Source: a virus
Virus record (IMG/VR): IMGVR_UViG_3300020407_000008
Span: 1-41,700 of that record
Direction: 5' to 3' (one strand)
Length of the DNA stretch: 41,700 bases
Shown here: in pieces, positions 4,962 through 27,539 of the stretch
Position numbering within the stretch: the first letter of the stretch is position 1
Layout: each line of letters begins with the position of its first letter
The notes under the pieces: generated by a model
Told to the model about the DNA's origin: nothing
The model's database searches: none
What the model saw: the letters and a program-made list of their open reading frames with translations, nothing else
Program-made: the position numbers and the translations under genes

Positions 4962-5203
4962 CGTTGCTCCGAAGAGGTGGGTTTGAGGGCGGCCAGCGCC
5001 GCATCGCAGGCCTTGCGGTACTCCGCGAGGCTGGCCAGGCCCATGCGGGGGTTCTTGCGCCGCTCGAAGGCCCGCCAGGTGCGGTAGACGTCGAGCTGCA
5101 GTGGTTTGGGCACGCCGTGCCAGCAGCCGCCGCACATCAGGTGGCCGGCGCGGGCAGGCCGCTGGCAGGCAGCACAGGGGTGGAGCACACGGGCCGTGGT
5201 CAT
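4958..5203 (-). CDS. Small zinc-ribbon protein
   Basis: An 81-residue protein with a clear four-cysteine knuckle pair, HPCAACQ (C10, C13) and LMCGGCW (C24, C27), which should bind one zinc ion. The rest is helical and basic, with RTWRAFERRKNPR in the middle. It could bind nucleic acid or a host protein. It starts at an ATGA overlap with the preceding small gene and ends at another with the DUF3164 gene. Confidence 0.7.
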   Translation of the reverse strand: MTTARVLHPCAACQRPARAGHLMCGGCWHGVPKPLQLDVYRTWRAFERRKNPRMGLASLAEYRKACDAALAALKPTSSEQR

Positions 5204-5412
5204 GGCAGCCTGCCCTCCACCCCGATGCCGTAGTAGTCCTGGCCGTCGCGCGTCGCGTGCTGCACATGGCAAGAGCGCACGAGTTCGTGGCACGCCATGT
5301 GGACCTTCTCGGCGGTGCAGCCGACGCGGTCATGCAGAGTCTTGAAGGGCAGCCATTCGCCCTGGTGCGCATCGATGCACAGCAGGATTGCGGCCAACAG
5401 GGCGCTGCTCAT
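5200..5412 (-). CDS. Small winged-helix-like protein
   Basis: A 70-residue protein whose pattern fits one winged helix: helix 1 LAAILLCIDAHQG, a turn, recognition-type helix CTAEKVHMACHELV, then a beta wing ending in DYYGIG. It is probably a small DNA- or protein-binding regulator. It overlaps both neighbours by 4 bases. The longer upstream gene (5409-5783) has a related plan, so the two may share origin. The specific target is unknown. Confidence 0.65.
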   Translation of the reverse strand: MSSALLAAILLCIDAHQGEWLPFKTLHDRVGCTAEKVHMACHELVRSCHVQHATRDGQDYYGIGVEGRLP

Positions 5413-7936: not shown

Positions 7937-7980
7937 GGCGGTGTGCTTCTTGGTGTGGTGGTGCAAGCCGGATGGGGCGG

Positions 7981-10397: not shown

Positions 10398-10629
10398 GCG
10401 CCGCCCCGCTGCGAGTCAACACGTTGTGCATCGGGGGCAGCTGAATGCCCATCGCATGCATGGCCTGACGGCACTTGCCCCGCCGCCCGACAGCGCGCCC
10501 GCGTACGACCATGTACACGACGTTCAGGTCTAGGTTTCGTTCCCGTGCCCATTCAGCGACCGTCTTGTTCTGCGCTTCCAGCTCCTTGAGGAACATCTCC
10601 AGCGTTTTGGGGGGGGTGATCTTTCTCAT
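10390..10629 (-). CDS. BcepMu gp16-like DNA-binding protein, first gene of the early operon
   Basis: A 79-residue basic protein. The pattern ALNKTVAEWARE-like (actual: QNKTVAEWARERNLDLNVVY) followed by MVVRGRAVGRRGKCRQAMHA matches the small phage-associated helix-turn-helix family typified by BcepMu gp16, which may play the Ner role of limiting early transcription. It begins about 35 bases after the predicted start of the leftward early promoter at 10672-10699. No good ribosome binding site is seen. The family call rests on the pattern and position. Confidence 0.75.
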   Translation of the reverse strand: MRKITPPKTLEMFLKELEAQNKTVAEWARERNLDLNVVYMVVRGRAVGRRGKCRQAMHAMGIQLPPMHNVLTRSGAAHV

Positions 10630-10662
10630 GGGCCGCTTAAAGTAGGTGTTGGAGCAAGTCTG

Positions 10663-10694
10663 TAGTCGTGGATTCTAGTCTCGACTCTAAGACT
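10663..10694. promoter_or_regulatory. Candidate repressor operator
   Basis: TAGTC-like half-sites occur at 10663-10667, 10676-10681 (TAGTCT) and, inverted, 10690-10694 (AGACT). The last two form AGTCT-N8-AGACT inside the early promoter spacer. The neighbouring repressor gene at 10715 is the likely binder. Binding itself is inference. Confidence 0.55.
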
Positions 10695-10699
10695 GTCAA
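10672..10699 (-). promoter_or_regulatory. Leftward early promoter with embedded dyad
   Basis: On the minus strand a TTGACA -35 box (10694-10699) and a TAGAAT -10 box (10672-10677) are separated by 16 bases, a near-consensus sigma-70 promoter. The transcript would start near 10665, ahead of the early operon. The spacer is filled by the dyad AGTCT-N8-AGACT (10677-10694), so a repressor bound there would block RNA polymerase. The -10 box differs from TATAAT at one base. Confidence 0.75.
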
Positions 10700-10714
10700 C
10701 TAAGCGGAAGCCCC

Positions 10715-11164
10715 ATGTCGCCGGAAGAGCACCAAGTCAGAATCCAACACGCCGATCGGCTGAAAGCAGAACGTTTGAGACTGGACCTCACACACGAGGA
10801 ACTGGCATCCGCGACGGGGGTGTCGCGCGCCACTCAGTTCGCCTACGAAAACGGGTCTCGTGCGCCAGACGTCCTGTACCTAGCGAAGGCCCGTGACGCT
10901 GGCGTTGACGTCCTGTTCGTAATTTCTGGACAGCGAGAGCGAGGTACGCCGGGCGTGACTTCTGAAGAGCGGGTGCTTATCGATCGCTACAACACGCTCG
11001 CGCCGCCACTAAGAAAGACAGTCGACGACGTCTTGTTGCTTGCAACCCACGCGTCTACAGGTGAATCCTCACCACGTGTTGCGCAAACGTTCCACGGCCC
11101 TGTAGGCGCAGTGGGGGACGCCGCTCGGGTTAAGCAGACCATCAAACACAAGGTTGGTCGATGA
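10715..11164 (+). CDS. XRE-family repressor (c-type)
   Basis: A 149-residue protein with a helix-turn-helix at about residues 14-65, including HEELASATGVSRATQFAYEN. It is divergent from the early operon and faces the dyad in the 85-base gap, so it is the probable lysogeny repressor. The C-terminal half lacks the LexA-type Ser/Lys autoprotease pattern; it is helical and ends with FHGPVGAVG. The ATG follows GGAAG at a suitable distance. Base composition is slightly poorer in GC than in the early operon. Confidence 0.85.
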   Translation: MSPEEHQVRIQHADRLKAERLRLDLTHEELASATGVSRATQFAYENGSRAPDVLYLAKARDAGVDVLFVISGQRERGTPGVTSEERVLIDRYNTLAPPLRKTVDDVLLLATHASTGESSPRVAQTFHGPVGAVGDAARVKQTIKHKVGR

Positions 11165-11253
11165 AGCGAACGGCGTTCCGCTGCGCAAGCAATAGCGCCG
11201 GGCCGATCCCCTTGCCAACCGTGTCTTGGCAGCGAAAATGCGACCCTGCGTAA
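11161..11253 (+). CDS. Possible 30-residue small protein downstream of the repressor
   Basis: An ATG overlapping the repressor stop (ATGA) opens a 30-codon frame, MKRTAFRCASNSAGPIPLPT onward, ending in TAA at 11251-11253. Translational coupling favours expression, but it is short, lacks recognisable features and could be chance. Confidence 0.25.
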   Translation: MKRTAFRCASNSAGPIPLPTVSWQRKCDPA

Positions 11254-11274
11254 CAGGTTGTTCGAGGCGTGCAG

Positions 11275-11511
11275 GTGTCCGTTCAAGAGTTTCATGGCCA
11301 GGTTGACCAAGTTGCGGTGGAGATCACTAATACCCACCATCACCACTACGTCGTCGTGATCGGTGCTCAAAACGACGGACTAGGTGCACCTGAACATCGC
11401 CATTGCTGTGCGGCCTGCAAGCGACGTGTGAATTCACGAGGCGCTCAGGGCCTTGCGAAAGCTGCATGGCGTGCGATCTTGCGCATGGCCAGGTCAACTA
11501 CCAACGATTGA
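11275..11511 (+). CDS. Immunity-region protein with FHG-V-QVA motif
   Basis: A 78-residue protein from a GTG at 11275, chosen because GAGG lies 7 bases upstream; a GTG at 11269 is also possible. It begins with VQEFHGQVDQVAVEI and a histidine run (NTHHHHY), then a Cys pair (CCAACKRR) and a short helical tail. The FHGQVDQVA segment echoes FHGPVGAVG in the adjacent repressor and is similar to an FHGPVGQVA-type motif I know from various uncharacterised phage proteins. The function is unknown; it may be expressed in lysogens. Confidence 0.5.
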   Translation: MSVQEFHGQVDQVAVEITNTHHHHYVVVIGAQNDGLGAPEHRHCCAACKRRVNSRGAQGLAKAAWRAILRMARSTTND

Positions 11512-11521
11512 GAGGTATGAA

Positions 11522-11842
11522 ATGGCGATGGTTGCCTGCAAGGAGTGCAGCGCTGAGCTCAGCACCTCGGCAAAAGCTTGTCCAAAGTGCGGGGCGGTCC
11601 GGCCCAAGCCGAAGCTCTGGCTATGGGTGCCTCTTGGTCTTGTGGGTGCCTTCTTCGCCTTCGGCATGGTCGCTGGGAATTCGCCAGAGGCGCGGGCGAA
11701 AAGCGAGGCGCGCGCGAAGATCAAATACTGCTGGAGCGAGCAGGAACGGAAGTCACTTGACTCCAGCTCGCAGCGGTTCGTCGCCAGAGTGTGTGAAGAC
11801 CTAGAGTCGGACTATCGGAATCGGTACGGGCACACTCCTTGA
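11522..11842 (+). CDS. Zinc-ribbon protein with one transmembrane helix
   Basis: A 106-residue protein with a zinc ribbon (C6, C9, C20, C23 in VACKECS and ACPKCG) followed by a membrane helix at about residues 32-52 (WLWVPLGLVGAFFAFGMVAG) and a charged tail with two Cys. The ATG at 11522 has GAGAGG just upstream; a start at 11453 would overlap the previous gene. It lies between the repressor and lysis genes, a common place for cargo expressed during lysogeny. The function is unknown. Confidence 0.65.
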   Translation: MAMVACKECSAELSTSAKACPKCGAVRPKPKLWLWVPLGLVGAFFAFGMVAGNSPEARAKSEARAKIKYCWSEQERKSLDSSSQRFVARVCEDLESDYRNRYGHTP

Positions 11843-11912
11843 TCTACCGCACGACCGGATTGACCTTCCCGCGCCTCGCGCGTTAGGCTGAAACCTCAGC
11901 TGCTGCACGGCC

Positions 11913-11934
11913 CTGCGTCACCGCAGAGTTACCT
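11913..11934 (+). promoter_or_regulatory. Activator dyad copy 1, upstream of the lysis operon
   Basis: CTGCG-TCAC-CGCAG is followed by AGTTACC. The same unit recurs at 24929 and 41541. It lies 35 bases before the endolysin start. It is the probable binding site of the Mor-family activator (558-962), with host RNA polymerase engaged downstream. No good -10 box is visible, as expected for activator-dependent promoters. Confidence 0.6.
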
Positions 11935-11946
11935 GTAGGACGGCAC

Positions 11947-11963
11947 CCCGGCACTCTGCCGGG
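11947..11963 (+). repeat. Hairpin immediately before the endolysin start
   Basis: CCCGGCA-CTC-TGCCGGG is a perfect 7-bp stem one base before the ATG at 11965. The only SD-like sequence, AGGACGG, lies upstream of the hairpin and would be brought to normal distance if the hairpin folded. An identical stem with a different loop occurs at 17236-17251. Confidence 0.5.
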
Positions 11964-11964
11964 C

Positions 11965-12582
11965 ATGCAGCTCCCGGACCTCCCCACCTCCATCGCACGT
12001 GCGATCGGCTTGATCGTCGTGCACTGCTCGGCCACACCGAGCGGTCAGTGGCTCCCGGGCACCGGCCCGGCCTTCAAGCGCACCGCAGCCGGCGTCATCG
12101 ACGACTGGCACGCCGCACGCGGCTTCAAGCGGCAGACGGCAGCCACCAATGCGTTCAACGCCCGGCTGCCGCACATCGGCTACCACTACGTGGTCGACGT
12201 CGACGGCTACATCTGGACCGGCCGCCACCTCAACGAGATCGGCGCCCACGTCGCCAACTTCAACGCCAACAGCGTTGGCATCTGTTTGGTCGGCGGCATC
12301 GAGCGCGAAGGCCGGTACACGCCCGAGCAGTGGGACTCGCTGTCCGCGCTGGTGTACCAGCTGGCGACCGGCCTGTCGGTGCCGCTGGTCAAGCGCAGCG
12401 GCATCCGGGCCAGCAAGGGAATCTGCGGCCACCGGGACCTGTCGCCCGACACCGACGGTGACGGCGAGGTATCCCAGCGCGAGTGGCTGAAGACGTGTCC
12501 GGGCTTCGACGTCGCGACGTGGCTGGGCCGTGGCATGCGCCCCATGCCGCAACACGTGGCCGTCAGCGTCGGGGTGGCGTGA
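11965..12582 (+). CDS. Endolysin, N-acetylmuramoyl-L-alanine amidase
   Basis: A 205-residue amidase_2-type endolysin. It cuts the amide bond between N-acetylmuramic acid and L-alanine in peptidoglycan. Zinc and catalytic residues by analogy with T7 lysozyme are H20 (VVHCSAT), Y73 (GYHYVVD), H156 (CGHRDLSPD) and C178 (TCPGFD). The central GRHLNEIGAHVANFNANSVG block is typical. No signal peptide is seen, so it needs the holin encoded next. The start is preceded by the hairpin at 11947-11963. It overlaps the holin start by one base. Confidence 0.92.
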   Translation: MQLPDLPTSIARAIGLIVVHCSATPSGQWLPGTGPAFKRTAAGVIDDWHAARGFKRQTAATNAFNARLPHIGYHYVVDVDGYIWTGRHLNEIGAHVANFNANSVGICLVGGIEREGRYTPEQWDSLSALVYQLATGLSVPLVKRSGIRASKGICGHRDLSPDTDGDGEVSQREWLKTCPGFDVATWLGRGMRPMPQHVAVSVGVA

Positions 12583-14906: not shown

Positions 14907-17183
14907 ATGCCTCAACTCACCTCTCCGCTGTCGACCCCGGCCGGCATGGCTGGCGTCAATCCGGCACACGTCGGCAAGATGGCGGGCACGCGCCTCCACT
15001 TCCCGAGCTTTGCGGCTTGGACTGCTGCGATCACCAGCGGAGCGACCGGCTTCGCGTCGGACCTCTGGGCCGATGGCCAGGAAATGACCATCGCCGACGA
15101 GGCGGACACCGGAGCGGTTCGGGTGTGGCGCACCTCGTTGGCTCACGCGCGCACTGTCCGGATGGGCGGCACTTCTGTCGTCCTCGCTGCGAACACCAAC
15201 CTGGCAATCGCCACCTCAGGCGTCCCCTCGTCCGGCACAGGTAGCGTCGGTGACGTGGCCATCGATGGTGGTGCGGGCGTTTACTACACGAAGGGCGCGG
15301 GTGGCTGGGGTTCCGCGTCCTCCCTCTATCCGGTGTCAGGGGTTGGGAACCTGCTGAGCACCGCTACGACGTCCGGCGACTCGTTCGAGGCGCTGATGCA
15401 CCAAGGCTTCATCCCCAACAGCGCTGTCGTCGCGAATGGTGTTGCCACTCTGGGCTTCGCCGCCGCGCATGGTCTCTACACCGGCACGAAGATCAACGCG
15501 ACCGGCGGTCCCAGCGAGGCCATTAACGGCATTCGCGTGGCGATCACGCGGATCGATGCAACGCATCTGAGTTACCCAGTACCTGGCGCGCCTGACGGTG
15601 TCATTGTCAGCGGCCCAGCCCAGTATCAGATCTTCGCCTGGTCGCAGAGGACGATGACGGGCATCTATCCCCACTTGCAGCGCCTCTCCAAGGGCTCATT
15701 ACGGCTGCTGCAGGCTGGCGGCATGTCGGGTCACCGAATGGCCGACGTGCTGGCCCGGTACGAGACGTCGCTGCGGCCCTATAAGGCTAAGCTGCACATC
15801 CACTGGGGCTACTTCAACGACCTGCAATACGGCGTAACTGCCGCTGCCTCCGCCGCGACCGTGCAGCAGATACTGACGCAACGCAAGGCGGATGGCTGCC
15901 TCACGGTCTGCGTGTCCGCGATTGCGGTTCAAACCGGCGTTTGGACCTGGCCGACGCTGACGGCCCCCTTGACGACGATGACCGACGCTACTGCGGCGGC
16001 GTGGATCTTGGCCTGGAACAAGCTGATGTCCGCTTGGTGCCTGGCCAACGGTGTCATCTGGATCGATGTGCACACCGGAACCGTCGACCCCGCCACCGGC
16101 TACGCCACCGCGGGTGCTTGCAAGGCGAACGACATCCATCCGGCGGCCCGCAGCTGCTACCTCGCCGCGAAGTTGATCTACACGCGCCTCTCCGGCGCTG
16201 GCTTCTTTTCGCCACGCGCCCTCGCATCCAGCGCGCTGGACAACGTCGGTGCCGACTCGACGAACCGAAATCTGTGCCGCGCAGCGCCGGTCGCGCAAGG
16301 CGCTGGCGGCACGCCCGGCGCCGGTCAGACCACCGCCTACACGACCTGGGCTTCCAGCATCGGGGCGGCCGTGGCGGCCAACCGCTGGCGCACCAATGCC
16401 GGCAATCTCTACTTCACGGCGGCGGGCGGGACGGTATCCTCGGCGTGGCAGACAGGCCAAGCCGTCACCAGCGGCCAGTACCGCATCAACGGCGGCAACC
16501 TTTACCAAGCCAGCAGCTCCGGCACGACTGGTGCCACAGCACCGACGCATACGGCCGGCTCTGCGAGCGACGGCGCTGTGTCGTGGCAGTACATCTCGGC
16601 TGCAGGACCAACGCACACCAGCGGATCGGCGACGGGCGTCGACGGAATTGCCTGGGCCTACATGGGCAAGGCGGAAGGCACCGCGGGCGTGCCCGCAAGC
16701 TACCGAGCGATCAACACGTCGACCGCGCTCGCGCTCACCTCGCTGGTGGACAAGGCATCCGGCGTCAAGGCGATGCGCAACACGACCTATGCCACGCTGG
16801 CCAACGACAGCAGCCTGCAAAGCTACAGCTTCACGCTGACGGACTTGGTAGGCGGAGACGTGCTGGACATCGCCTTCTTGGCGTCGCTCCTTACCAATTT
16901 CACGGGGGTGGCTGGCGGACCGAGCGCTCAGAACGTCAAGAGCTTCACCGGCTACGTGGAATTCCAGACGGACGGCGTGACGTACCTGGTCTACGAACAA
17001 CTCGGCGGCGTGTCAGCTGCCAACGAGCAAATCACCGATGACCTCAGCGACGTTGCCATCGTGCTCGAAGAAGTTGTGGTTCCGACCGGTAGCACAACGC
17101 TGGCGCGGGTACATCTTCAAACGCAGTGGTCCGGGGCGGGACAGGCGGCCACGGAGATGGGCTGTCTGACGGCAACGCACTGA
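14907..17183 (+). CDS. Fibre-like protein with SGNH/GDSL-hydrolase-like domain
   Basis: A 758-residue protein. The N-terminus (about 1-150) looks like a capsid or fibre attachment region. Residues about 240-430 fit an SGNH hydrolase: S246 (FAWSQRTMTG in place of GDS), G272 (GGMSGHRM), N304 (GYFNDL) and H411 (NDIHPA, with N408 where the DxxH Asp is usual). Such domains remove acyl groups from polysaccharides. Residues about 490-590 contain short GGNLYQASS-type repeats found in phage fibres, and the C-terminus looks like a beta-rich binding domain. The altered block I and V make activity uncertain. The ATG follows TGGAG. Confidence 0.65.
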   Translation: MPQLTSPLSTPAGMAGVNPAHVGKMAGTRLHFPSFAAWTAAITSGATGFASDLWADGQEMTIADEADTGAVRVWRTSLAHARTVRMGGTSVVLAANTNLAIATSGVPSSGTGSVGDVAIDGGAGVYYTKGAGGWGSASSLYPVSGVGNLLSTATTSGDSFEALMHQGFIPNSAVVANGVATLGFAAAHGLYTGTKINATGGPSEAINGIRVAITRIDATHLSYPVPGAPDGVIVSGPAQYQIFAWSQRTMTGIYPHLQRLSKGSLRLLQAGGMSGHRMADVLARYETSLRPYKAKLHIHWGYFNDLQYGVTAAASAATVQQILTQRKADGCLTVCVSAIAVQTGVWTWPTLTAPLTTMTDATAAAWILAWNKLMSAWCLANGVIWIDVHTGTVDPATGYATAGACKANDIHPAARSCYLAAKLIYTRLSGAGFFSPRALASSALDNVGADSTNRNLCRAAPVAQGAGGTPGAGQTTAYTTWASSIGAAVAANRWRTNAGNLYFTAAGGTVSSAWQTGQAVTSGQYRINGGNLYQASSSGTTGATAPTHTAGSASDGAVSWQYISAAGPTHTSGSATGVDGIAWAYMGKAEGTAGVPASYRAINTSTALALTSLVDKASGVKAMRNTTYATLANDSSLQSYSFTLTDLVGGDVLDIAFLASLLTNFTGVAGGPSAQNVKSFTGYVEFQTDGVTYLVYEQLGGVSAANEQITDDLSDVAIVLEEVVVPTGSTTLARVHLQTQWSGAGQAATEMGCLTATH

Positions 17184-17235
17184 CACCAGGCAAGCCCGAA
17201 TGACGAAGCGGAAAGCTTACCGAGATGATGAGAGA

Positions 17236-17251
17236 CCCGGCAAGTGCCGGG
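17236..17251 (+). repeat. Hairpin before the PEP-CTERM gene
   Basis: CCCGGCA-AG-TGCCGGG is a 7-bp perfect stem, identical in arms to the hairpin at 11947-11963. It lies after the fibre gene stop (17183) and 17 bases before the PEP-CTERM start. It lacks a T-run, so a terminator role is weak; it may mark an insertion boundary or leader element. Confidence 0.45.
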
Positions 17252-17268
17252 CATCACGAGGAGGATAT

Positions 17269-18021
17269 ATGAAGATTCTGAAGCATTTCGCTGTCGCCGC
17301 ACTCTCGTTCGCAGGCGCTGCCTACGCGGATGGCCACGCCAACGGCACCGTCGCCTTTGCCGACATCAGCGGCTACGGCATTCGGTACACGGCAGACTGG
17401 ATAACGCCGGTGGACTACAAGCTTTCCGCCTCAGCCACTACCTATGGGCGATATCCCATTGACGGCCTCTACCAGTACATCCTTGTGTCCGGCAATTTGG
17501 CCTTGGCTCCCACAGTGCCGGCAGGCGCTGGCAGTTTTGACCTGCAGGTCACGATGACTATGGAGTACATCAACCTTGCTACCGGCAAGGTTGAGGCGCC
17601 CGCACAGTTCTATGAGATGGTCAAGAAGACCGGTGGGGGCTTCAGCCATACGGACGCCGTCAATTGCCCAAGCGGCTACAACGTCGAACTCCGATTCTCA
17701 AACTCGGTGTGCGATTTCAACGCGACCGCAGCCTCGTCGGGCGGCGGCAACCCGGCCAACGACGTATTCAGGTTTCCGCTGGCGGTCACAACCAGCACCC
17801 TGTACCACTTCAGGGGTGGTCACTACTTGAGCGCGTCAAACGACCCTACATGCGCGTCGTTTGACTGCATGACACCAGGTCAAGACCTTTTCGGTTTGCC
17901 CACGGTAAGGCTAGACGCGACGATTGCGATCAGCACGGTCCCTGAGCCTGCAACGGCTGCGCTGATGCTCGCGGGCCTGGCCTTCACGGCGACCGTGGCG
18001 CGACGTCGCCGAGGCGATTAA
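17269..18021 (+). CDS. PEP-CTERM sorting-signal protein (prophage cargo)
   Basis: A 250-residue exported protein. The signal peptide is MKILKHFAVAALSFAGAAYA. The C-terminus (about residues 222-250) has the PEP-CTERM layout: STVPEPATAALMLAGLAF with the VPEP motif, a hydrophobic segment, then RRRR. Exosortase of the host is expected to cut at this signal and route the protein to the cell surface or exopolysaccharide. The mature domain is beta-rich with four Cys and is not recognised. A strong GAGGAGG precedes the ATG at 17269. Base composition is lower in GC than in neighbouring phage genes, as for horizontally gained cargo. Confidence 0.8.
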   Translation: MKILKHFAVAALSFAGAAYADGHANGTVAFADISGYGIRYTADWITPVDYKLSASATTYGRYPIDGLYQYILVSGNLALAPTVPAGAGSFDLQVTMTMEYINLATGKVEAPAQFYEMVKKTGGGFSHTDAVNCPSGYNVELRFSNSVCDFNATAASSGGGNPANDVFRFPLAVTTSTLYHFRGGHYLSASNDPTCASFDCMTPGQDLFGLPTVRLDATIAISTVPEPATAALMLAGLAFTATVARRRRGD

Positions 18022-18372: not shown

Positions 18373-18873
18373 ATGGCGCATCCGTCCGAGCGGCGCACGC
18401 AGCTGCGCGGCCTGTACGTCTACAAGCGCCTGCCGATGGAGTCGGCGTGCAACGCGCTCAAGATCGCGAAGTCGACGGGCATCCGCTGGAAGGCCGAGGC
18501 CCGCGACGAGGGTGACGACTGGGACACCGCCCGGTCGGCACTGGCGATGGGCGACGAGAACTTCACGCAGCTGGCGCGCCGGCTCATCGAAGACTACCTG
18601 GTGCAGCACCAGGCGGTGATGGAGACCCTGCGCAACGACGAGGCGCTATCGCCCGCGCAGCGCATGAGCATCCTGGCCAGCGCCGGCGACAGCTTCCACA
18701 AGACCATGTCGGCCTTCAAGAAAGTGGCGCCGGAGATCAACCGGCACGCCATCGCGCTGGACACGCTGCAGCGCTTCGCGTCCTTCGCGCAGCAGCAGTA
18801 CCCGCAGCACGTGCCTGCGATGCTGGAGATGCTGGAGCCCTTCGGCTCGGAGCTGGCCAAGGCCTATGGCTAA
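18373..18873 (+). CDS. Terminase small subunit-like protein (DUF1804, Mu gp27 type)
   Basis: A 166-residue protein starting MAHPSERRTQLRGLYVYKRL with a helix-turn-helix-like segment (LPMESACNALKIAKSTGIRW, about residues 20-39) and a helical oligomerisation region. Mu gp27/DUF1804 proteins sit directly before the large terminase and are thought to recognise the packaging start. It overlaps the large terminase gene by 8 bases. Assignment is by order and N-terminal pattern. Confidence 0.8.
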   Translation: MAHPSERRTQLRGLYVYKRLPMESACNALKIAKSTGIRWKAEARDEGDDWDTARSALAMGDENFTQLARRLIEDYLVQHQAVMETLRNDEALSPAQRMSILASAGDSFHKTMSAFKKVAPEINRHAIALDTLQRFASFAQQQYPQHVPAMLEMLEPFGSELAKAYG

Positions 18874-20542
18874 GACCAGCAAGGACTTCCTTGCCGGCCT
18901 GGCCGGCCTGGTCGAAGGCCTGCGCCGCCAGGTCGACGCCAACCTCGACGGCTGGGACCTGACGCCCGAGGCCATTGCCGAACGCCGGCGCCAGGTGGCC
19001 GACGACATCAACGGCTTTGCGTTCTTCGACCGGACGTACTTCCCGCACTACGGCACCGCGGAGCCGTCGGCGCTGCATCGGTACCTGCACAAGCGCCTGC
19101 CCGAGATCGTCAACACGCCCACCGGCCAGCGCGACGCTTTGGCAGCTCCGCGCGGCGAGGCCAAGTCGACCAAGATCAGCCTGATCTTCTTGCTGTGGTG
19201 CGTGGTCCGCAAGATCAAGCACTACCCGCTGATCTTCATGGACGCCTTCGAACAGGCGGCCGAGATGCTGGAGGCGGTGAAGGTCGAGCTCGAATCGAAC
19301 CCGCGCCTGGCCAGCGACTTCCCGGATGCCTGCGGCCAGGGACGCGTCTGGCGCGTGGGCTGCATCGTGACGGCCAACGACGTCAAGATCGAGTCCTTCG
19401 GCGTCGGCAAGCGGGTGCGCGGCCGTCGTCACGGCCCCTATCGGCCGGACCTGGCCATCCTCGACGACATCGAGAACGACGAGAACTCGGCCACTCCGGC
19501 CCAGCGCGACAAGCTGCAACGCTACGTGACCAAGGCGGTGCTCAGCCTGGGCCCGGTCGACGACAGCATGGACGCGGTCCTGGTGGGCACCGTGCTGCAC
19601 TACGACAGCGTGTTGTCGAGGTTCCTGAAGCACCCGATGTGGAACAGCCGGGTCTTCAAGGCGATCTTGAAGTGGCCAGACCGCATGGACCTGTGGGACG
19701 AGTTCGAGGCTCTCCTGCTGGGCGGTGACACGCCGCAGGAGGGCGAGGCGTCAGCCATGCTGCTGTATGCCAAGCACCAGGCCGAGATGAACAAGGGCGC
19801 CGAGGTGAGCTGGCCAGCGGTGCGGCCGCTGGTCAAGCTGATGATCAAGCGCGCCCGAGACGGCCACGAGGCCTTCGACAGCGAGCAGCAGAACGACCCC
19901 ATCAGCGGCGAGGAAGCGCCCTTTGCGGGATGCATCCAGTTCTGGGTCAATCGCATCGCCGAGTGGGTGTTCTACGGCGCCTGTGACCCGTCGCTGGGGC
20001 TCAAGGGCAAGAGCCGAGATCCCAGTGCGCTGCTCGTGGGCGGCTACCAGCGTGAGAAGGGCATCCTGAGCGTCGTCGACGCCCGCATACGCAAGCGCAC
20101 GCCGGACCGGATCATCAGCGACATCATCACGATGCAGTCCGAGTGGCAGTGCGTGATGTGGGCGATCGAGGCGGTGCAGTTCCAGGAGTTCCTGCGCACC
20201 GAGCTGCTCAAGCGCAGCGCGATCGCGGGGGTGCCGGTGTCGGCCCGCGGCGTCAAGCCGCACGACGACAAGCTCTTGCGCATCGAAGCCCTGCAGCCCT
20301 TTGTCGCGGCTGGCCAGATCCTGCTGCACGCCGGCCAGACCACGCTGGTCGACCAGCTGCGCCACTTCCCCAAGGCTGACCACGACGACGGGCCCGACGC
20401 GCTGGAGATGCTGTGGAAGCTGGCATCGACCGGCGGCCGCGCAGCTGGCGCCACCGTCGATGGCAGCCGTGAAGACCAATCCGAGCGCGCTGGCGCTCGC
20501 CGAGCTCGACGCGCCCGCGGCCGCCGAGCTGCTCTTGCCTGA
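18866..20542 (+). CDS. Terminase large subunit (Mu gp28-like)
   Basis: A 558-residue packaging ATPase/nuclease. The Walker A-like site is APRGEAKST (residues 94-102) and the Walker B is LAILDDIE (196-203). The C-terminal nuclease has an early acidic residue in GACDPSLGLKG (about residue 372) and a late one in DDGPDALEML (about 510). In Mu-like phages it cuts the packaged DNA near the integrated end and takes host DNA at the other end for a headful. The length is normal for this family. It overlaps the small subunit by 8 bases. Confidence 0.9.
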   Translation: MAKTSKDFLAGLAGLVEGLRRQVDANLDGWDLTPEAIAERRRQVADDINGFAFFDRTYFPHYGTAEPSALHRYLHKRLPEIVNTPTGQRDALAAPRGEAKSTKISLIFLLWCVVRKIKHYPLIFMDAFEQAAEMLEAVKVELESNPRLASDFPDACGQGRVWRVGCIVTANDVKIESFGVGKRVRGRRHGPYRPDLAILDDIENDENSATPAQRDKLQRYVTKAVLSLGPVDDSMDAVLVGTVLHYDSVLSRFLKHPMWNSRVFKAILKWPDRMDLWDEFEALLLGGDTPQEGEASAMLLYAKHQAEMNKGAEVSWPAVRPLVKLMIKRARDGHEAFDSEQQNDPISGEEAPFAGCIQFWVNRIAEWVFYGACDPSLGLKGKSRDPSALLVGGYQREKGILSVVDARIRKRTPDRIISDIITMQSEWQCVMWAIEAVQFQEFLRTELLKRSAIAGVPVSARGVKPHDDKLLRIEALQPFVAAGQILLHAGQTTLVDQLRHFPKADHDDGPDALEMLWKLASTGGRAAGATVDGSREDQSERAGARRARRARGRRAALA

Positions 20543-20549
20543 GGCCCCT

Positions 20550-22037
20550 ATGAGCAACGCCTACACCTTGGCCGACTTCGGCATCACCATGCTTGGCCAG
20601 GCGCTGCCGACCAAGACCGCGCCCGTGGCCACCCGGGAAGCCGCAGGCGCCTTCGACGACGAAGACCGCGGCTGGCGCACCCTCACCGGCGTGGCTAGGC
20701 GCGACCTGTCCAGCGTCAGCCAGGCGCAGATGCAAAAGCTGGCTGCCTACCTGTGGGAAACCAATCTGTTGGCCAACCGCCTGGTCGAGCTGCCGCTGGC
20801 ATTCCTGGTGGCCGAGGGCGTCAAACTCACCTGCGAGGACGAAGAGCACCAGGAATGGCTGCGCGCCTTTTGGAACGATCCCATCAACAAGATGGATTTG
20901 CGCCTACCCACCTTCGCGCGCGAGCTCGCGCTGTTTGGTGAGCAGTGCTGGCCGGTGTATGTCAACGACGTCAACGGGCATGTGCGCCTTGGTTATCTCG
21001 ATCCGTCCTTGATTGAAAACGTCATCGTGGACCCGGGGAACCCTTCTCAGGAAATCGGCGTTCGCACCGTCAAGGACGCCGCCGGGGTATTTCGGCAGTT
21101 TCGGGTGATCGTGCGTGGCGAGGACGATGAGTTGTTTGCGGCGCCGGCCAGGCAGCTGCGGGCCGGTTTCGACAGCGGTGAGGCGTTTTATTTTGCGGTC
21201 AACAAATTCGCTGCGGGTCGGCGCGGCCGCAGCGATCTGATTGCCCAGATGGATTGGCTCGACGGCTACGACGAGTTTCTGTTCGACCAGCTGGAGCGGG
21301 CCGGTGAGCTCGACGCATTCATCTGGGATGTCGAGCTGACCGGCGCGGACGAAGAAAAGGTCAAGGCGCGCGCCAAGGAAATCAAGCGACCTGGTCGAGG
21401 CAGCGTGCGCGTTCACAACGAACAGGAGAAGTGGACGGCCGAGGCGCCCAGCCTGAACGCGGTCGACCGCGCCGAGAGCGCCCGCATGTTCCGCAACCAT
21501 GCGCTCGGCGGCGCCACGCTGCCCGAACACTGGTACGGCGGCGGCGGTGACGTCAACCGCGCCTCGGCCGCCGAGATGGGCGACCCCTTCTTCAAGGTCG
21601 CAACCATGCGCCAGACCACCCTGCGCCACATGCTGCAGGAGATGGGGCACTACGTGCTGTATCGGCGGGCGATCGCCGCTGGCCAGCGGCCGCAGTGGGG
21701 CAAGCCGGAGTGGACCGTTCGGGCCGAGTTCCCGGAGATGGTCACCCGGGACGTCACCAAATTGGCCAGCGCGCTGCAGAGCTGCGTCGTCGCCGTGGCG
21801 TCCGCCCTCGGTGAGCGGCTGATCACCCGGGCCACCGCCTTGCGGATCATCGCAACCGCTGCGAAGCGCCTGGAGGTCGACATCGACCCCGAGGCCGAGC
21901 TGGCGGCGGTGGAGGAGGAGGCACCGGACCCGGCAGCTGCTGCAGCGGCCGCAGCGGCCGTGGTGACCGTGCCAGCCGGCCTGGAAGACGACGACGCCAG
22001 CCAGGGCGCAGCCGATGGCCACGGGCAAGGCAAGTAA
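20550..22037 (+). CDS. Portal protein (Mu gp29-like)
   Basis: A 495-residue portal. Helical and beta segments such as DMQKLAAYLWETN-type (actual: AQMQKLAAYLWETNLLANRL) and the SVRVHNEQEKWTAEAPSLN block fit a phage portal. It forms the dodecamer at the capsid vertex for DNA packaging and tail attachment. The ATG at 20550 is 8 bases after the terminase stop and follows GAGG. An in-frame ATG at 20460 would overlap terminase by 83 bases and lacks a ribosome site. The Ala/Glu-rich C-terminus is probably disordered. Confidence 0.85.
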   Translation: MSNAYTLADFGITMLGQALPTKTAPVATREAAGAFDDEDRGWRTLTGVARRDLSSVSQAQMQKLAAYLWETNLLANRLVELPLAFLVAEGVKLTCEDEEHQEWLRAFWNDPINKMDLRLPTFARELALFGEQCWPVYVNDVNGHVRLGYLDPSLIENVIVDPGNPSQEIGVRTVKDAAGVFRQFRVIVRGEDDELFAAPARQLRAGFDSGEAFYFAVNKFAAGRRGRSDLIAQMDWLDGYDEFLFDQLERAGELDAFIWDVELTGADEEKVKARAKEIKRPGRGSVRVHNEQEKWTAEAPSLNAVDRAESARMFRNHALGGATLPEHWYGGGGDVNRASAAEMGDPFFKVATMRQTTLRHMLQEMGHYVLYRRAIAAGQRPQWGKPEWTVRAEFPEMVTRDVTKLASALQSCVVAVASALGERLITRATALRIIATAAKRLEVDIDPEAELAAVEEEAPDPAAAAAAAAAVVTVPAGLEDDDASQGAADGHGQGK

Positions 22038-23025
22038 TGGGGCGCCGGGCACCGACCCCGCCAAGGCTGCCAAGGCCGCGCTGGCCCAGGTGCTTCGCCA
22101 ACGCGTGGCGCTGTGGGCTAACCTGGATGCAGAGCTGGCGCGGCTGATCGACCAGGCGTTGCTCACGATCAACGGTCAGCTGGCGCGGGCGCCCTCCGAC
22201 TACCAGCAGTGGGTGCTGCCGCGACTGTCCGACAGCATCCGGCGTGTCTCCGACGAACTGGCCGTGTCTGCCAGCACCAAGGCCTCGGACGGCTTGCGCC
22301 AAGCCTGGGCGCTGGGTGAAAGGGTGGTGCAAGCGCCGATCGCCGCGGCGCAGGCGGCAGAGACGCTGCTGGCGGTCGCCGGCGCCAGCCAGGCCACGCC
22401 CGCCGCGGCCGTGGCCACCGCAGTCTTCAGCTCGCCCGACCTGCGCCAGCTGCGCGCGCTGCAGGCGGTCAACACCCACCTGATCACGGGCGCGACCGCC
22501 GACCTGGTCAACAGCGTCAATCGCGAGCTCGGTCAGGTGGTGCTGGGCGCCCGCACGCCCTTCGAGGCGATGCAAGCGGTCCAGCAGCTGCTGCCCGACC
22601 GCACGAAGAACCAGGTGCGGGGCATCGTCACCAGCAACCTCGGCACCGCCTTCAACACGGCGAGTTTCAAGGCCCTGCAGGCCCAGGCCGCCCGCGATTC
22701 GAAGATCCGCAAGCAGTGGCGCCGCTCGGGCAAGCTGCACAGCCGCTGGAACCACGACGCGATCGACGGCCAGGTCCAGGAAATCAACGACCCCTTCGAG
22801 CTGCCGGCGGGCAAGGGGCGTGGCAGCGTGCAGATGATGTACCCGGCTGATCCAGCCGCTCCAATCGGTGAGGTCATTCACTGCGGCTGCGTTGCGCTGC
22901 CGTGGAAGGCGACGTGGAAGATGCGGGTGCCGGCAGGCAGGCCGCTGACCCCGGAAGAAGTCGAGGCCCGCCGGGAGGACGCGGCCCGGCTGGAAGGCAA
23001 GCGGCTGCCTCCGCGCAGGCGCTGA
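22015..23025 (+). CDS. Head morphogenesis protein (Mu gp30/SPP1 gp7-like)
   Basis: A 336-residue protein. The N-terminal 250 residues are helical, and the C-terminal domain carries the family-type segment HSRWNHDAIDGQVQEINDPF followed by GEVIHCGCVALPW, with the conserved C-x-C. Such proteins act in procapsid assembly and may be injected. The gene overlaps the portal by 23 bases. It is the last head gene before the leftward cargo module. Confidence 0.85.
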   Translation: MATGKASNGAPGTDPAKAAKAALAQVLRQRVALWANLDAELARLIDQALLTINGQLARAPSDYQQWVLPRLSDSIRRVSDELAVSASTKASDGLRQAWALGERVVQAPIAAAQAAETLLAVAGASQATPAAAVATAVFSSPDLRQLRALQAVNTHLITGATADLVNSVNRELGQVVLGARTPFEAMQAVQQLLPDRTKNQVRGIVTSNLGTAFNTASFKALQAQAARDSKIRKQWRRSGKLHSRWNHDAIDGQVQEINDPFELPAGKGRGSVQMMYPADPAAPIGEVIHCGCVALPWKATWKMRVPAGRPLTPEEVEARREDAARLEGKRLPPRRR

Positions 23026-23033
23026 CCCGCCAG

Positions 23034-23048
23034 AGGCTCTAGGAGCCT
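23034..23048. repeat. Short hairpin after the head morphogenesis gene
   Basis: AGGCTC-TAG-GAGCCT forms a 6-bp stem nine bases after the stop at 23025. It may help end transcription before the oppositely oriented cargo genes. No T-run is present. Confidence 0.3.
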
Positions 23049-23163
23049 TCGCGTTCGCTTTCGGCACCCCATGCACCATCCGAGGGTCGTCAGGCGATCC
23101 TGGCGCGATTTACAGTGGTTTTAAAGTGGGTCGGCCGGTCTACGCTCAGTCGCCAAGGCGAGC

Positions 23164-23721
23164 TCAGTCCGCGACTGGCGGTTCAGGCAGCGGCCGATCC
23201 GACTTTGGACGGCGCATGCCCACCGCCTTGACGCCCTCTATCGTGAGGGCCCGGCTGTCCTCGTGGTCCAGGTAGGTCTTGACCTTGTCTGCCGGCACCA
23301 GCGTCAAGAGCACGGTCCACAACTGCCAGATGGTGAGCGTAGCCAGCGTTCCATAAGAGAGCCCGCGCAAGACCGCGATGTCGACGGCGAACTCCTGCCG
23401 CTTGAGGATCGGCACGCTCACGCCTAAAACCAAGATGACGCTCAGGATGGCGGTCGAGTGGACGACGGGCAAGAACAGCTGGTTGAGCCCGGTGGCAGAG
23501 CTGGCCGCGCCCGGCTGTTGAGGTTTGAAGGACAGCTTCAGGCGATCGGGGTAAATGATGGCCATCCAAGCGCCAATGACCGCAAAGATGATCGAGGCCG
23601 TGGTCCGCAGCGCCTCAAACATCGGCCACTGCTCTGCCATGGGCACGACGCGGCCGAACCAGCCCGCCGCCGCGATCAGTGCGATCGCGATCAGTGCGAA
23701 GAAGATCCGGAAAGCGTTCAA
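23164..23721 (-). CDS. Four-helix membrane protein of the leftward cargo module (RexB-like layout)
   Basis: A 185-residue protein from a TTG at 23721 with GAGG upstream, 10 bases into the end of the preceding minus-strand gene region. Four membrane helices are visible: FRIFFALIAIALIAAAGWFG, TASIIFAVIGAWMAIIY, STAILSVILVLGVSVPIL and LATLTIWQLWTVLLTLV. A charged tail follows. The pairing with a soluble protein upstream resembles lambda RexA/RexB, where RexB is a four-helix channel protein. Similarity to RexB at sequence level is not evident. The start codon is uncertain. Confidence 0.65.
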   Translation of the reverse strand: MNAFRIFFALIAIALIAAAGWFGRVVPMAEQWPMFEALRTTASIIFAVIGAWMAIIYPDRLKLSFKPQQPGAASSATGLNQLFLPVVHSTAILSVILVLGVSVPILKRQEFAVDIAVLRGLSYGTLATLTIWQLWTVLLTLVPADKVKTYLDHEDSRALTIEGVKAVGMRRPKSDRPLPEPPVAD

Positions 23722-23731
23722 GGGGATTGCC

Positions 23732-24763
23732 TCAGGGGATCGTGGCCAGGATCTGCCGGCGCAGGCGGTGCAGCTCGTGCAGCAGTGACTCACCGTTGAC
23801 GTGCTCAGGATTCTCGCGCCGAACGTCCAGCTCGAACGTGTCCCGCGCAATCGACCTCGAAATCCAGTGGACCTTGTTGGCATCCCCGGTGAACACGAAG
23901 CCAAGGTCGTCCCACTCCGTTTGGTTCTGCTCGTCCTGCCACTGCGCAATGAGCTCTCGCACGTCCGTCTCCGTCAGCGAGACTTCCAGCTCGTATCCCA
24001 GCTTGACGTCCGTACGTCTGGCGATGGGCTCGCGCATGCCGCTGTACTCCAACAGTCGCTGCCACATTGCCCGTTGATCGCGACGCTCCAGCGAGAGCGT
24101 GGACTTTCGGATGATCTTGCGAATGCTGGTCGCCCGACGAATTAGCAGCTCATGTTCTCCTGCTTTGGTGAACAGCTCGCTACGGAAGCGACCACGTAGA
24201 TTTAAAATGTCCGCCCCGGGCCGCTCGCAGTAACCCAAAATCGTAGGGTCCTGGGCATCTTCGTCGAAAACGACGTGTCGCCCGAAGTTTCTGAGGAACG
24301 ACTGCAGATATGTCTGCAGCTGGTAATGGCCGCCTGAGAGATGCTGAAAACGGATGGACGCAAAGTACGGGGCGCCGTGGATGAACCAGAAGTATGTCGA
24401 GTAGCCCGGGATGCTGTTCGGCTGAATCGCGTTCATGAACACTTCTGGGTTGCCCACCTGAGATATGGCGCTGACCGAGGCGACCTTGCCATCGGTCTCC
24501 GGTGTGGCATTCCAGAGTGCTACTAGGCGGTCACCTTGAAGCTGGTGGGTACTGAGTAGATAGACACCCAGGTCGGGCCCATCCTCACCTGGCGTGAAGG
24601 TAAGGGTTTCGCCGAGATCCTTGTGTTGCGACCAAACCGCCAAGTCTTCAAGCAGGTCAGCCAGACTGCCAAACATGTACTGATCACCACGGGGCCGGTA
24701 GTAGCCGCACTTCGCGATCCGATAGAACGTGATTTTTGCTTCTTCCAAAACCGCCTCACCCAT
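23732..24763 (-). CDS. Soluble partner of the leftward cargo module (candidate RexA-like sensor)
   Basis: A 343-residue soluble protein. It begins EEAKITFYRIAKCGYYRPRG and has a central beta-rich domain, with SIPGYSTYFWFIHGAPYFAS followed by FQHLSGGHYQLQTYLQSFL. That block resembles in layout the RexA segment in which a short G-x-P/S-x-F-x-F stretch precedes a helix, as I recall it. The C-terminus is helical. It lies upstream of the membrane gene in the same operon, opposite to all late genes. The ATG at 24763 has no good ribosome site; a TTG at about 24748 is an alternative. Base composition differs from flanking phage genes. Confidence 0.6.
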   Translation of the reverse strand: MGEAVLEEAKITFYRIAKCGYYRPRGDQYMFGSLADLLEDLAVWSQHKDLGETLTFTPGEDGPDLGVYLLSTHQLQGDRLVALWNATPETDGKVASVSAISQVGNPEVFMNAIQPNSIPGYSTYFWFIHGAPYFASIRFQHLSGGHYQLQTYLQSFLRNFGRHVVFDEDAQDPTILGYCERPGADILNLRGRFRSELFTKAGEHELLIRRATSIRKIIRKSTLSLERRDQRAMWQRLLEYSGMREPIARRTDVKLGYELEVSLTETDVRELIAQWQDEQNQTEWDDLGFVFTGDANKVHWISRSIARDTFELDVRRENPEHVNGESLLHELHRLRRQILATIP

Positions 24764-24928
24764 AAACAGTTGCTTGCCGATTGTTACGGTGGATCAGCGG
24801 GCCCGAGGGGCGGCTGGTGGTCAAGATTTACCCTCGTGCACCAGCGTTCAGCCTCTAGACAGTCGCCGCATGCCGCTGTACAGCGTGCGCTTGCTGAGGC
24901 AGACTGATCGGGCGCAATCACCAGCGTT

Positions 24929-24949
24929 CTGCGCCCCCGCAGAGTTACC
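24929..24949 (+). promoter_or_regulatory. Activator dyad copy 2, upstream of the capsid operon
   Basis: TCTGCG-CCCC-CGCAGA (24928-24943) is followed by AGTTACC, as in copy 1. It lies 48 bases before the first capsid-operon gene, a spacing that fits an activator centred near -43 with a short leader. It is the probable promoter for 24998 onward. Confidence 0.6.
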
Positions 24950-24997
24950 GAAGAGCTTGTCGCTCGGCAAAGTCCGCTCCACCCACTGGAGCGCGAC

Positions 24998-25219
24998 ATG
25001 CCCGAGACCAAAGACCAAGCCACCCCCACCAAAGAGCTGACCGCGGCCGACGTGGTCAAGGTGGTCAAGCGCCGCACCCTCGTCGAAGACAAGGGCGTCA
25101 GCCGCGTGGTGACCAGCCCGCTGAAGGCGAGCGAAGTTTTGTCATTCAAGGACTACGGCACGCACATCGTCGTCGTGACGACCGACGGCCAGAAGTTCAG
25201 CAACGCCGACGAGGCCTGA
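24998..25219 (+). CDS. Small protein opening the capsid operon
   Basis: A 73-residue protein, MPETKDQATPTKELTAADVV onward, with an acidic N-terminus and a beta-rich C-terminus. It lies 11 bases before the protease/capsid fusion gene. It might be a head accessory protein; the family is not recognised. TGGAGCG upstream serves as ribosome site. Confidence 0.7.
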   Translation: MPETKDQATPTKELTAADVVKVVKRRTLVEDKGVSRVVTSPLKASEVLSFKDYGTHIVVVTTDGQKFSNADEA

Positions 25220-25229
25220 GCGCAGCGCC

Positions 25230-27539
25230 ATGAGCGTCAAGCGCATCCCCGCTGGCCAGGGCTTCACCCGCCTGTCCGAGGCCGTCACCACCGAATACGC
25301 CAGCCTGCTGGAGCTGGTGCGCGCCGCACTGCGCGACAAGCTGCGCGCCACGCCTGGCGTCTCGGACTACTACCTGGAGCTGTCGGGGATCTGGCCCGAT
25401 CGCGTGGTGGCCAAGGTGCAGGGCCGCTTCATGTCCTTTCCGTACACGCTGGACGCCGACAACAAAGTGGTGCTGGCCGACGGCAAGGAAGTGGTCCTCG
25501 ACTACACCGCAGTGCGCGAAGCCACTGGCCTGGCAGACCCGACGGCCACCTTCCGCGAAGCGGCCGACGGGTCGATCGCGGTGACCATCATCCGGGCCGG
25601 CGCCAGCATCAACGGCAACTACTACACCGACGCGTCTTTGCAGGGCGCGGTGCAAATGTTTGAAGGCGTCCGCGTCTTCAGCAAGAGCGACGCCGATCAC
25701 ACCAAGGGCGCCGGCAAGGACGTGCGCAACCTCATTGGCGGCATCTACGGCGTGAGCTTCGCGGCCGGCAGCACGGCCGACACCGGCTCGCTGGTCGGCA
25801 CCTTCCGGCCCATCGACCCGACCGATGCCGTCGTCACCAAGATGACCGAAGCCGTCAAGCGCGGGATGCAGGGCCTCATGGGCCTGTCCATCGACGCGGA
25901 GGCCTACACCAAGAAGCAGAAGGTCGGCGGCCGCCAGATGCGCGTGGCCAAGTCCTTCGCCAAGGTGCACAGCGTTGACCTGATCGTCGAACCGGGCGCG
26001 GGTGGCGGCCTGGATCGCCTCACCGAAGCCACCACCCCCCCTTCCGACAACGGAGAAACCATGCTCAAGACGCGCATGTACGAGGCCATCAAGGCCAAGA
26101 ACAAGGCCCGTGCGGCCGAGATCGACCTGGACACCATCACCGACGAAGAGCTGCTGAAGGTGTACGAGGCCGTCTGCGGCACCGCCGGCAACGGCGCTGC
26201 GGCCGCGGGCGCCGACGGCACCATCAAGGGCCGCGTGAGCGAAGCCGATGCCGGCGACGACGCCCCCGTCACCCGCGCCCAGCTGGCGCTGCACAACGCC
26301 CGCTTCTATGCCTCGACGGCCATCGCGGTCAGCACGCTGCCGCAAGTGGCCAAGGACCGCCTGCAGGCCGACTTCAAGGTGCGCGAGCGCTTCACCGAGG
26401 CCGAAGTTGACAGCGCCATCAAGAGCGAGCGCGAATACCTGGCCCGTTTCACCGAAAGCGGCCGCCCCACCGGTGGCATGCCGCGCATCGAGGTGGGCGA
26501 CCGCACGGTGGCGGTCAAGGACATGCTGGACGCCTTCTTCGACCCCAAGCACAAGGACCACCGCAGCGTGCGGTCCTTCCGCGAGTGCTACGTCGAGATC
26601 ACCGGCGATCGCGAGATCACCGGCCGCCCGGACCGCGTGCGCCTGACCGAGTCCATCGGCACCGACACCTTTGCCGACGCGCTGGGCAACTCCATCACCC
26701 GCCGCATGCAGGCCGAGTACCGCGATGCGGTGGCCTGGGACGCCTGGCGCCAGGTGGTGTCGGTGGCCAACGTTGCCGACTTCCGGGTGCAAGAGCGCAC
26801 CCAGATTGGCGGCTACGGTGACCTGCCGATCGTGGCCGAACGCGGCAACTACACCACGCTGTCGGACCCGAGCGACGACAAGGCGCTGTACCAGGTGGCC
26901 AAGCGCGGCGGCCTGGCGCAGGTCACGATGGAAGCCATCGCCAACGACGATGTGCAGGCCATCCGCCGCATCCCGATCGAGCTGGGCCGCGGTGCCAAGC
27001 GCACCCTCTACAGCTTCGTCTTCAACTTCTTCGCAGCCAACCCGGTCACTTACGACGGCCTGGCGCTGTACCACGCCACCCACGGCAACCTGCTCACCGG
27101 TGCGCTGAGCGCGGCGCAGATCTCGGCCCACCGCCTGGCCATGAAAAAGCAGCCGGGCCGCGACACCGGCAAGCGCATGGGCATCGGCCCGCGCTTCCTG
27201 CTGGTGCCCGATGACCTCGAAGAGGCCAGCGCGGACATCTTCCGGCGCAACACCAACAACGACAAGACGTTTGTCCAGAGCCTGACGCTGGACATCATCC
27301 CGGTGTCGACGTGGACCGACACCAACGACTGGGTGTCGCTGGCCGATCCGCTGGATCTGCCGGTGATCGAAATCGGCTTCTGGAACGGCGAGGAGGAGCC
27401 CACGCTGCTGACGCAAAACGGTGCCACCGAAGGCTCGGTGTTCACCAACGACGTCATCTCCTACAAGGTCCGCCACGTCTACGGCGGCAATGTCCTGGTC
27501 GACGGCTTCAAGGGCACGACGAAGGCGGTGGTGCCCTAA
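25230..27539 (+). CDS. Prohead protease / major capsid protein fusion
   Basis: A 769-residue protein. The N-terminal ~270 residues fit a Mu-type prohead protease, with candidate catalytic H157 (SDADHTKGAGKD) and S220 (MGLSIDAEAY). A helical scaffold-like linker (about 278-400) follows, and then the major capsid domain (about 400-769) with IGGYGDLPIVAERGNYTTLS and a GPRFLLVPDDLEEAS segment of gpT type. Phages of this group fuse protease, scaffold and capsid in one gene. An in-frame ATG at 26061 (Met278) has GGAG six bases upstream and could give a scaffold-capsid product lacking the protease. A strong hairpin follows the stop. Confidence 0.88.
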   Translation: MSVKRIPAGQGFTRLSEAVTTEYASLLELVRAALRDKLRATPGVSDYYLELSGIWPDRVVAKVQGRFMSFPYTLDADNKVVLADGKEVVLDYTAVREATGLADPTATFREAADGSIAVTIIRAGASINGNYYTDASLQGAVQMFEGVRVFSKSDADHTKGAGKDVRNLIGGIYGVSFAAGSTADTGSLVGTFRPIDPTDAVVTKMTEAVKRGMQGLMGLSIDAEAYTKKQKVGGRQMRVAKSFAKVHSVDLIVEPGAGGGLDRLTEATTPPSDNGETMLKTRMYEAIKAKNKARAAEIDLDTITDEELLKVYEAVCGTAGNGAAAAGADGTIKGRVSEADAGDDAPVTRAQLALHNARFYASTAIAVSTLPQVAKDRLQADFKVRERFTEAEVDSAIKSEREYLARFTESGRPTGGMPRIEVGDRTVAVKDMLDAFFDPKHKDHRSVRSFRECYVEITGDREITGRPDRVRLTESIGTDTFADALGNSITRRMQAEYRDAVAWDAWRQVVSVANVADFRVQERTQIGGYGDLPIVAERGNYTTLSDPSDDKALYQVAKRGGLAQVTMEAIANDDVQAIRRIPIELGRGAKRTLYSFVFNFFAANPVTYDGLALYHATHGNLLTGALSAAQISAHRLAMKKQPGRDTGKRMGIGPRFLLVPDDLEEASADIFRRNTNNDKTFVQSLTLDIIPVSTWTDTNDWVSLADPLDLPVIEIGFWNGEEEPTLLTQNGATEGSVFTNDVISYKVRHVYGGNVLVDGFKGTTKAVVP
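26061..26063 (+). promoter_or_regulatory. Candidate internal translation start in the capsid fusion gene
   Basis: ATG codon 278 follows CGGAGAAACC, an SD-like GGAG at ideal distance. Initiation here would give a 492-residue scaffold plus capsid protein, useful because many more capsid than protease copies are needed. This is similar to nested scaffold genes in lambda and Mu. Confidence 0.5.

Follow-up and report, generated by a model that had tools for sequence, protein, structure and literature searches.

In a Mu-like phage, a pair of genes runs leftward between the gene for head morphogenesis and the protease/major-head gene, with one small gene intervening on the latter side, and raises the question of whether it takes part in building the phage head or is carried there for some other purpose. 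The window, by which we mean the whole stretch of 41,700 nucleotides that was analysed (IMG/VR record IMGVR_UViG_3300020407_000008, positions 1 to 41,700), belongs to a phage with Mu-type transposition genes at 7187-10173 and with terminase, portal, head-morphogenesis and protease/major-head genes that span 18866 to 27539. In the terminase the phage shares about 62% identity with DMS3 and its kin. The first-pass annotation of this DNA had read the pair, here named A and B, as a 343-residue soluble protein and a 185-residue protein with four membrane helices, built on the plan of lambda RexA/RexB and borne by the prophage as defence cargo. The open reading frames, hydropathy and an all-helical model of B agree with that description of the two proteins, and the Rex-like interpretation as a whole is supported by the results below. 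Taken together, these results are best explained by a RexAB-type anti-phage cassette that is borne by the prophage and moves horizontally. We consider it probable that it works as a Rex-type exclusion system, in which A would be the sensor or trigger and B the membrane effector, a function that we infer from the comparisons described here. The features of the locus are collected in Table 1.

Table 1. Features of the A/B cassette and its surroundings in the window
Feature	Position	Strand	Basis
Repressor-like gene	10715-11164		
Left flank, outside the cassette: phage head-morphogenesis gene	22015..23025	+	PHROG 2468, head morphogenesis, E 3.7e-20
ATTTACAGTGGTTTTAAAGT, a version of the TTTAAA-N4/5-GTTTAAA motif	23108..23127	+	comparison by eye
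Gene B: PDC-M18B-type four-helix inner-membrane protein, 185 aa, TTG start; proposed membrane effector	23164..23721	-	ORF, PADLOC, hydropathy, AlphaFold2
TM2 exit motif I-I-Y57-P58-D-R60-L-K62: codons of B residues 55-62	23536..23559	-	alignment; most conserved element
Gene A: PDC-M18A-type soluble protein, 343 aa, ATG start; proposed RexA-like sensor/trigger	23732..24763	-	ORF, PADLOC, PHROG, AlphaFold2
Block PGYSTYFWFIHGAPYFAS: codons of A residues 119-136	24356..24409	-	alignments; with I118 holds family-invariant G120, Y124, W126
Intergenic region 5' of A, expected to hold the A promoter	24764..24997	.	no sigma-70 consensus
Right flank: small gene 24998-25219 and protease/major head fusion 25230-27539	24998..27539	+	PHROG 29592, 4523, 133

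Both A and B are real genes, because relatives of A are present in 94 viral-contig stretches and relatives of B in 66. The two form an operon in the window, where B begins 10 nt past the A stop and a GAGG run resembling a ribosome site lies just 5' of the B start. Across the family the pairing is strict: in 84 of the 85 pairs measured the distance from A to B lies within -17 to +22 nt, and a 4-nt overlap is the commonest arrangement, the ORF calls in these pair surveys being mechanical. The pair is also lower in GC than its flanks in every one of 85 homologous pairs, with a median difference of 11 points, and the window follows the same pattern (A 58.2% and B 63.3%, against 66.8% for the window).

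Searches of PADLOC matched six PDC-M18A models to A (best E 1.9e-115) and five PDC-M18B models to B (best E 4.4e-67), and the PDC-M18A models match all 53 aligned A homologues. Judged by these model matches, the pair is a member of PDC-M18, a family catalogued in PADLOC as a candidate defence system. In PHROGs, A falls into PHROG 24371 (E 1.1e-58), and the families returned are of unknown function; Pfam and NCBIfam searched with A and B gave nothing, and weak matches to Josephin, JAB and streptavidin were set aside as chance. The literature searched contained no paper that names PDC-M18 and no published function for it, and two other PADLOC candidates, PDC-M63AB and PDC-S04, had no activity in one study (PMC12409345). 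A scan of GTDB genomes yielded 40 relatives of A, mostly in Pseudomonadota, with some in Thermodesulfobacteriota, Campylobacterota, cyanobacterial and spirochaete assemblies, and a homologue of A is present in 9 of 399 Pseudomonas species genomes.

Sequence homology of the pair to lambda RexA/RexB was undetectable by any of the methods applied (Pfam, PADLOC, and hhalign with its null). The Pfam RexA model (PF15969) does not match A, and the Pfam RexB model (PF15968) does not match B; the RexA and RexB models of PADLOC match the lambda proteins but not A or B. In the sequence-model comparison lambda RexA scores 326.8 bits and lambda RexB 305.4 bits. Profile-profile comparison of A with lambda RexA relatives by hhalign, using several alignments, gave scores inside a null made of 77 neighbour proteins together with shuffled and reversed RexA. 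This profile test has little power, however, because lambda RexA and its accepted homologues Sbash gp30 and CarolAnn gp44 also fail it against each other.

Comparison of folds points more directly to RexA, which had been named as the fold target in advance of the PDB search. The AlphaFold2 model of A, built from 53 sequences (pLDDT 91.9, pTM 0.84), was compared with the PDB by Foldseek, and lambda RexA (8TWQ) ranks first of 350,542 chains with an E of 1.2e-3 and a prob of 0.98, followed by CENP-N/Chl4 chains; among all these chains no match reaches E 0.001. The Rex-like architecture proposed earlier is supported by this ranking. Published structural relatives of RexA include RdgC and two kinetochore proteins, IML3 and CHL4 (PMC11077077). 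The RexA/RdgC/CENP-N-type fold may represent a single ancient family of DNA clamps. In the model of A an N-terminal sheet domain extends to about residue 185 and is followed by a sheet/helix domain and a C-terminal helix, an order that agrees with the published description of RexA, and on the strength of this model A appears to share the two-domain RexA/RdgC-like fold. Along their whole length A and 8TWQ superpose poorly (TM 0.27-0.31, rmsd 22.5 A). The low global TM is likely to reflect, as far as a predicted model can tell, a differing angle between the two hinged domains of RexA. A is also acidic, with a pI of 5.7 and a net charge of -9, versus +3 for lambda RexA. An earlier suggestion that a block of A recalls the central segment of RexA holds in one part only: the block PGYSTYFWFIHGAPYFAS is real and sits in the most conserved region of the A family (I118, G120, Y124, W126), but the RexA resemblance of its PGYSTYFWF block is without statistical support.

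In the viral structure set (BFVD), the best fold match of A is A0A8S5S8L2, a 314-aa protein of phage ctylc9 (E 5e-11), and A0A8S5S8H0 (172 aa) of the same phage is a weak fold match of B. These predicted structures suggest that the two ctylc9 proteins are another diverged pair of the same plan.

Structural analysis of B gives a coherent picture of a membrane protein. Hydropathy identifies four hydrophobic helices, the AlphaFold2 model (mean pLDDT 88.2) is all-helical with four long helices, and the homologues have four or five hydrophobic segments in 53 of the 53 viral cases scored. The second transmembrane segment and its exit, with the pattern Y57-P58-[DE]-R60-L-K in the alignment, are the best-conserved part of the protein. 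Profile comparison of B with RexB and with the Sbash and CarolAnn proteins showed no homology, and the best BFVD match of B, a 165-aa Sbash protein, is a weak one (prob 0.98, E 0.19). Of the two structural checks proposed in the first-pass annotation, the one on A, whose fold matches RexA best in the whole PDB, came out in favour of the Rex reading. The matched protein is presumably gp31, judging by its length, since Sbash gp31 has 165 aa; it is the membrane effector and RexB analogue of a proven Rex-type system. At the equivalent of the TM2 exit, Sbash gp31 carries S-Y-N-R70-V-K-D73, and the substitutions R70A and D73A abolish its defence (PMC6426596). When the two sequences are placed side by side by eye, R60 of B would parallel R70 of gp31.

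The mechanism that we propose for the pair follows the known Rex-type systems. By analogy with RexA, A would dimerise on DNA and would sense the DNA or the replication intermediates of an incoming phage. It would then trigger B, which would oligomerise and damage or depolarise the inner membrane, and the infected cell would stop growing, with the result that the infection aborts. In the window phage such a system would presumably be expressed in the lysogenic state. There is experimental support for two-gene systems of this type in lambda, in the actinophages Sbash and CarolAnn, and in P. putida (RexABpp), where the soluble protein activates the membrane effector (PMC12894663). The same plan can also run in the opposite direction, as in gp30/gp31 of mycobacteriophage Butters, which have reversed roles (PMC12894663), and A could in the same way be the antiviral effector, held inactive by B at the membrane until infection. 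The strict pairing of A and B suits either role, and the conserved TM2 exit of B could be the site where A is anchored. However, the closest fold match of B is an effector protein of the Sbash type, and of the five Rex-type systems described, four have the membrane protein as effector; we regard such a reversal as unlikely.

The Rex-type exclusion system, with A as trigger and B as effector, can also be considered in light of where the pair is found, since a search for it elsewhere, as proposed in the first-pass annotation, found it in other phages and on plasmids at different loci. In several relatives the pair lies next to a repressor. In Ps59 it stands behind the repressor on the same strand, with two genes between, and before the holin; in vB_Pae_U3, too, the holin comes right after it; in Halomonas phage 4908 it is 3' of a LexA-type repressor and one further gene, on the same strand, with a restriction-modification pair a few genes away; and in a P2-like Vibrio phage it is directly 3' of a CI-type repressor, again on the same strand, where by the annotation of the record it adjoins Septu and a type IV restriction enzyme. 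Among the upstream neighbours in viral contigs, repressor-type families are commonest, and antitermination, tail and Psu genes occur as well; with neighbours as varied as these, the pair evidently uses several accessory sites.

Two further observations concern these phages. In the Vibrio phage the pair, Septu PtuAB and the type IV restriction enzyme all lie between CI and the integrase (L008:9600-12924), forming a small defence island. In Ps59 (L003:10450-10950) and vB_Pae_U3 (L002:10753-11253) a 166-aa gene is located about 10 nt 5' of A, and it is possible that this gene is a third partner or a regulator.

The location near a repressor in several phages would also suit a prophage regulator, in which A shifts the lysis-lysogeny switch or, like RdgC, recombination, and B tunes A at the membrane; lambda RexA does bind DNA non-specifically, bias the bistable switch and act at the CI promoter (PMC11077077). 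We find a regulator distinctly improbable, because in the window some 12 kb separate the pair from the repressor-like gene, which lies on the other strand, because the pair is also found on plasmids without an adjacent phage switch, and because RexABpp is without effect on its own repressor promoter. Small prophage membrane proteins often block DNA entry, and B, as a four-helix membrane protein, could block DNA injection at the inner membrane, with A as its regulator or chaperone. Known entry-block proteins are usually single genes, however, and entry exclusion leaves a RexA-like partner at every locus unexplained, which makes it very improbable.

Whether a trigger and effector of the Rex type would be at home among head genes depends on how the pair came to this site, and here the relatives of the window phage are informative. 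Thirteen relatives were found through the protease/major-head protein, with a readable head site in ten; the pair is absent from all ten of these sites, eight of which (L170, L172-L176, L178, L181) hold a short interval only, one (L179) a longer stretch and one (L171) other cargo. Two other relatives, L020 with its near copies and L025, which match the window at 69% in the terminase and at 51-55% in the protease/major-head protein, do have the pair in this interval but, unlike the window, co-directionally with the late genes. L020 and L025 form a fully supported group in the tree of A proteins, and the window falls elsewhere; a single origin of the three A proteins is recovered in 0% of 200 bootstrap trees, and the well-supported branches force at least two changes. 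The A of the window is closer to that of L009 and L010 (45%), the latter nearly identical to Ps59, than to that of L020 and L025 (38-39%), even though L020 and L025 share its head genes. Because phages with the same head genes either lack the pair or carry it in the other orientation and from another branch of the family, the pair is cargo and not a head function. As far as these sequences can tell, the cassette has reached the head site at least twice, in opposite orientations, as cargo at an accessory site. Earlier, the case for prophage-borne defence cargo had been made from orientation and base composition; the lower GC is general in the family and PADLOC lists the pair as a defence candidate, but the orientation proves to be no family rule, as L020 and L025 show. 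A conserved function in head assembly or late structure of this phage group, which the position between head genes and the shared orientation in L020 and L025 might suggest, is scarcely credible against the sites without the pair, the two or more arrivals in both orientations and the occurrence of the pair at unrelated loci in Mu-like, P2-like and other phages and on plasmids.

In DMS3 the interval at this head site holds an anti-CRISPR gene, and it is part of the known set of plastic regions in the DMS3-type phage group (PMC4378225). The TTTAAA-N4/5-GTTTAAA motif, compared by eye, recurs at the corresponding intergenic place in L020, L025 and L173, the last a relative without the pair, and by this sequence comparison it would mark the ancestral intergenic region. 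A terminator-like site, GTCGGCC-TTAGTTTTTT, precedes the small head gene of L020, L025 and L173. The scan for promoters upstream of A found no sigma-70 consensus site, the only terminator-like site from the promoter and terminator scan is inside B, and a search for RNA families and tRNAs across the window returned none. At the head site of L171 there is other cargo, including an ORF at 4956-5291 (-) that by eye resembles a staphylococcal-nuclease protein. Two more dips in GC are present in the window, at 10500-12000 (0.58, around the repressor) and at 17000-18000 (0.60, before the terminase genes), and possibly mark other cargo; one of 26 window ORFs outside the cassette weakly matches RmrA in PADLOC (E 6.1e-7).

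Against the Rex-type reading we count the acidic A, the promoter region without a consensus, the B match at E 0.19, the late-gene orientation in L020 and L025, the lack of RexA/RexB sequence homology, the poor superposition on RexA and the failed PADLOC candidates PDC-M63AB and PDC-S04. With these weighed, we lean somewhat towards viewing PDC-M18 as a third branch of a Rex superfamily, unrelated in sequence to lambda RexAB and to the actinophage Sbash/CarolAnn type beside which it would stand, distributed across Pseudomonadota and several other phyla, in phages and on plasmids, and slotted into accessory sites, among them the Mu-like anti-CRISPR site. If this is true, sensing infection in concert with a membrane effector would be a widespread role of the RexA/RdgC/CENP-N-type fold. 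The trigger of lambda Rex is still unsettled some 70 years after the system became known; the more than 80 natural pairs and the conserved residues mapped here provide many systems for probing RexA-type sensing and RexB-type opening. A catalogued candidate, PDC-M18, thereby gains a concrete and testable mechanism, and the DMS3-type accessory site, known for anti-CRISPRs, is seen to take an apparent exclusion cassette as well. In the literature searched, neither a connection of PDC-M18 with the RexA fold nor such a cassette at the Mu-like anti-CRISPR site appears to have been described before.

How the pair stands among known systems can be summarized as follows. The anti-CRISPR locus of the DMS3/D3112 type is alike in having cargo between the minor-head/neck genes and the head protease with a GC unlike the core, but it consists of acr/aca genes, whereas here a two-gene exclusion cassette is found, and in reverse. 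With lambda RexA/RexB the pair shares the order of a soluble protein first and a four-helix membrane protein second, the lambda gap being 15 nt, and in several relatives (the Ps59, Halomonas and Vibrio phages) also the placement downstream of a repressor that is typical of lambda rexAB. It differs from lambda in lying among head genes and not behind the repressor, in the sizes of the proteins (279 and 144 aa in lambda, 343 and 185 aa here) and in the acidic character of A. Sbash gp30/gp31 and CarolAnn gp44/gp43 have the same two-gene plan, and Sbash gp31 has a conserved arginine just after TM2, as does B, but profile comparison detects no sequence homology of these proteins to the pair. RexABpp (PP_5643/PP_5644, from P. 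putida prophage P1) similarly combines a RexA-like DNA-binding protein with a four-helix membrane effector, lies, in its Pseudomonas prophage, 3' of a CI-like repressor, and has sizes that appear comparable to those of A and B. The seven published residues of RexBpp were sought among the homologues found, none of which carries four or more of them, and this search gave no candidate for PP_5643/PP_5644 among the homologues. Should RexABpp belong to PDC-M18, the family would be already validated and the novelty of our finding lower. With PDC-M18 itself the agreement is complete: both proteins match its models, the gene order is the same, the spacing is close, and no difference was found.
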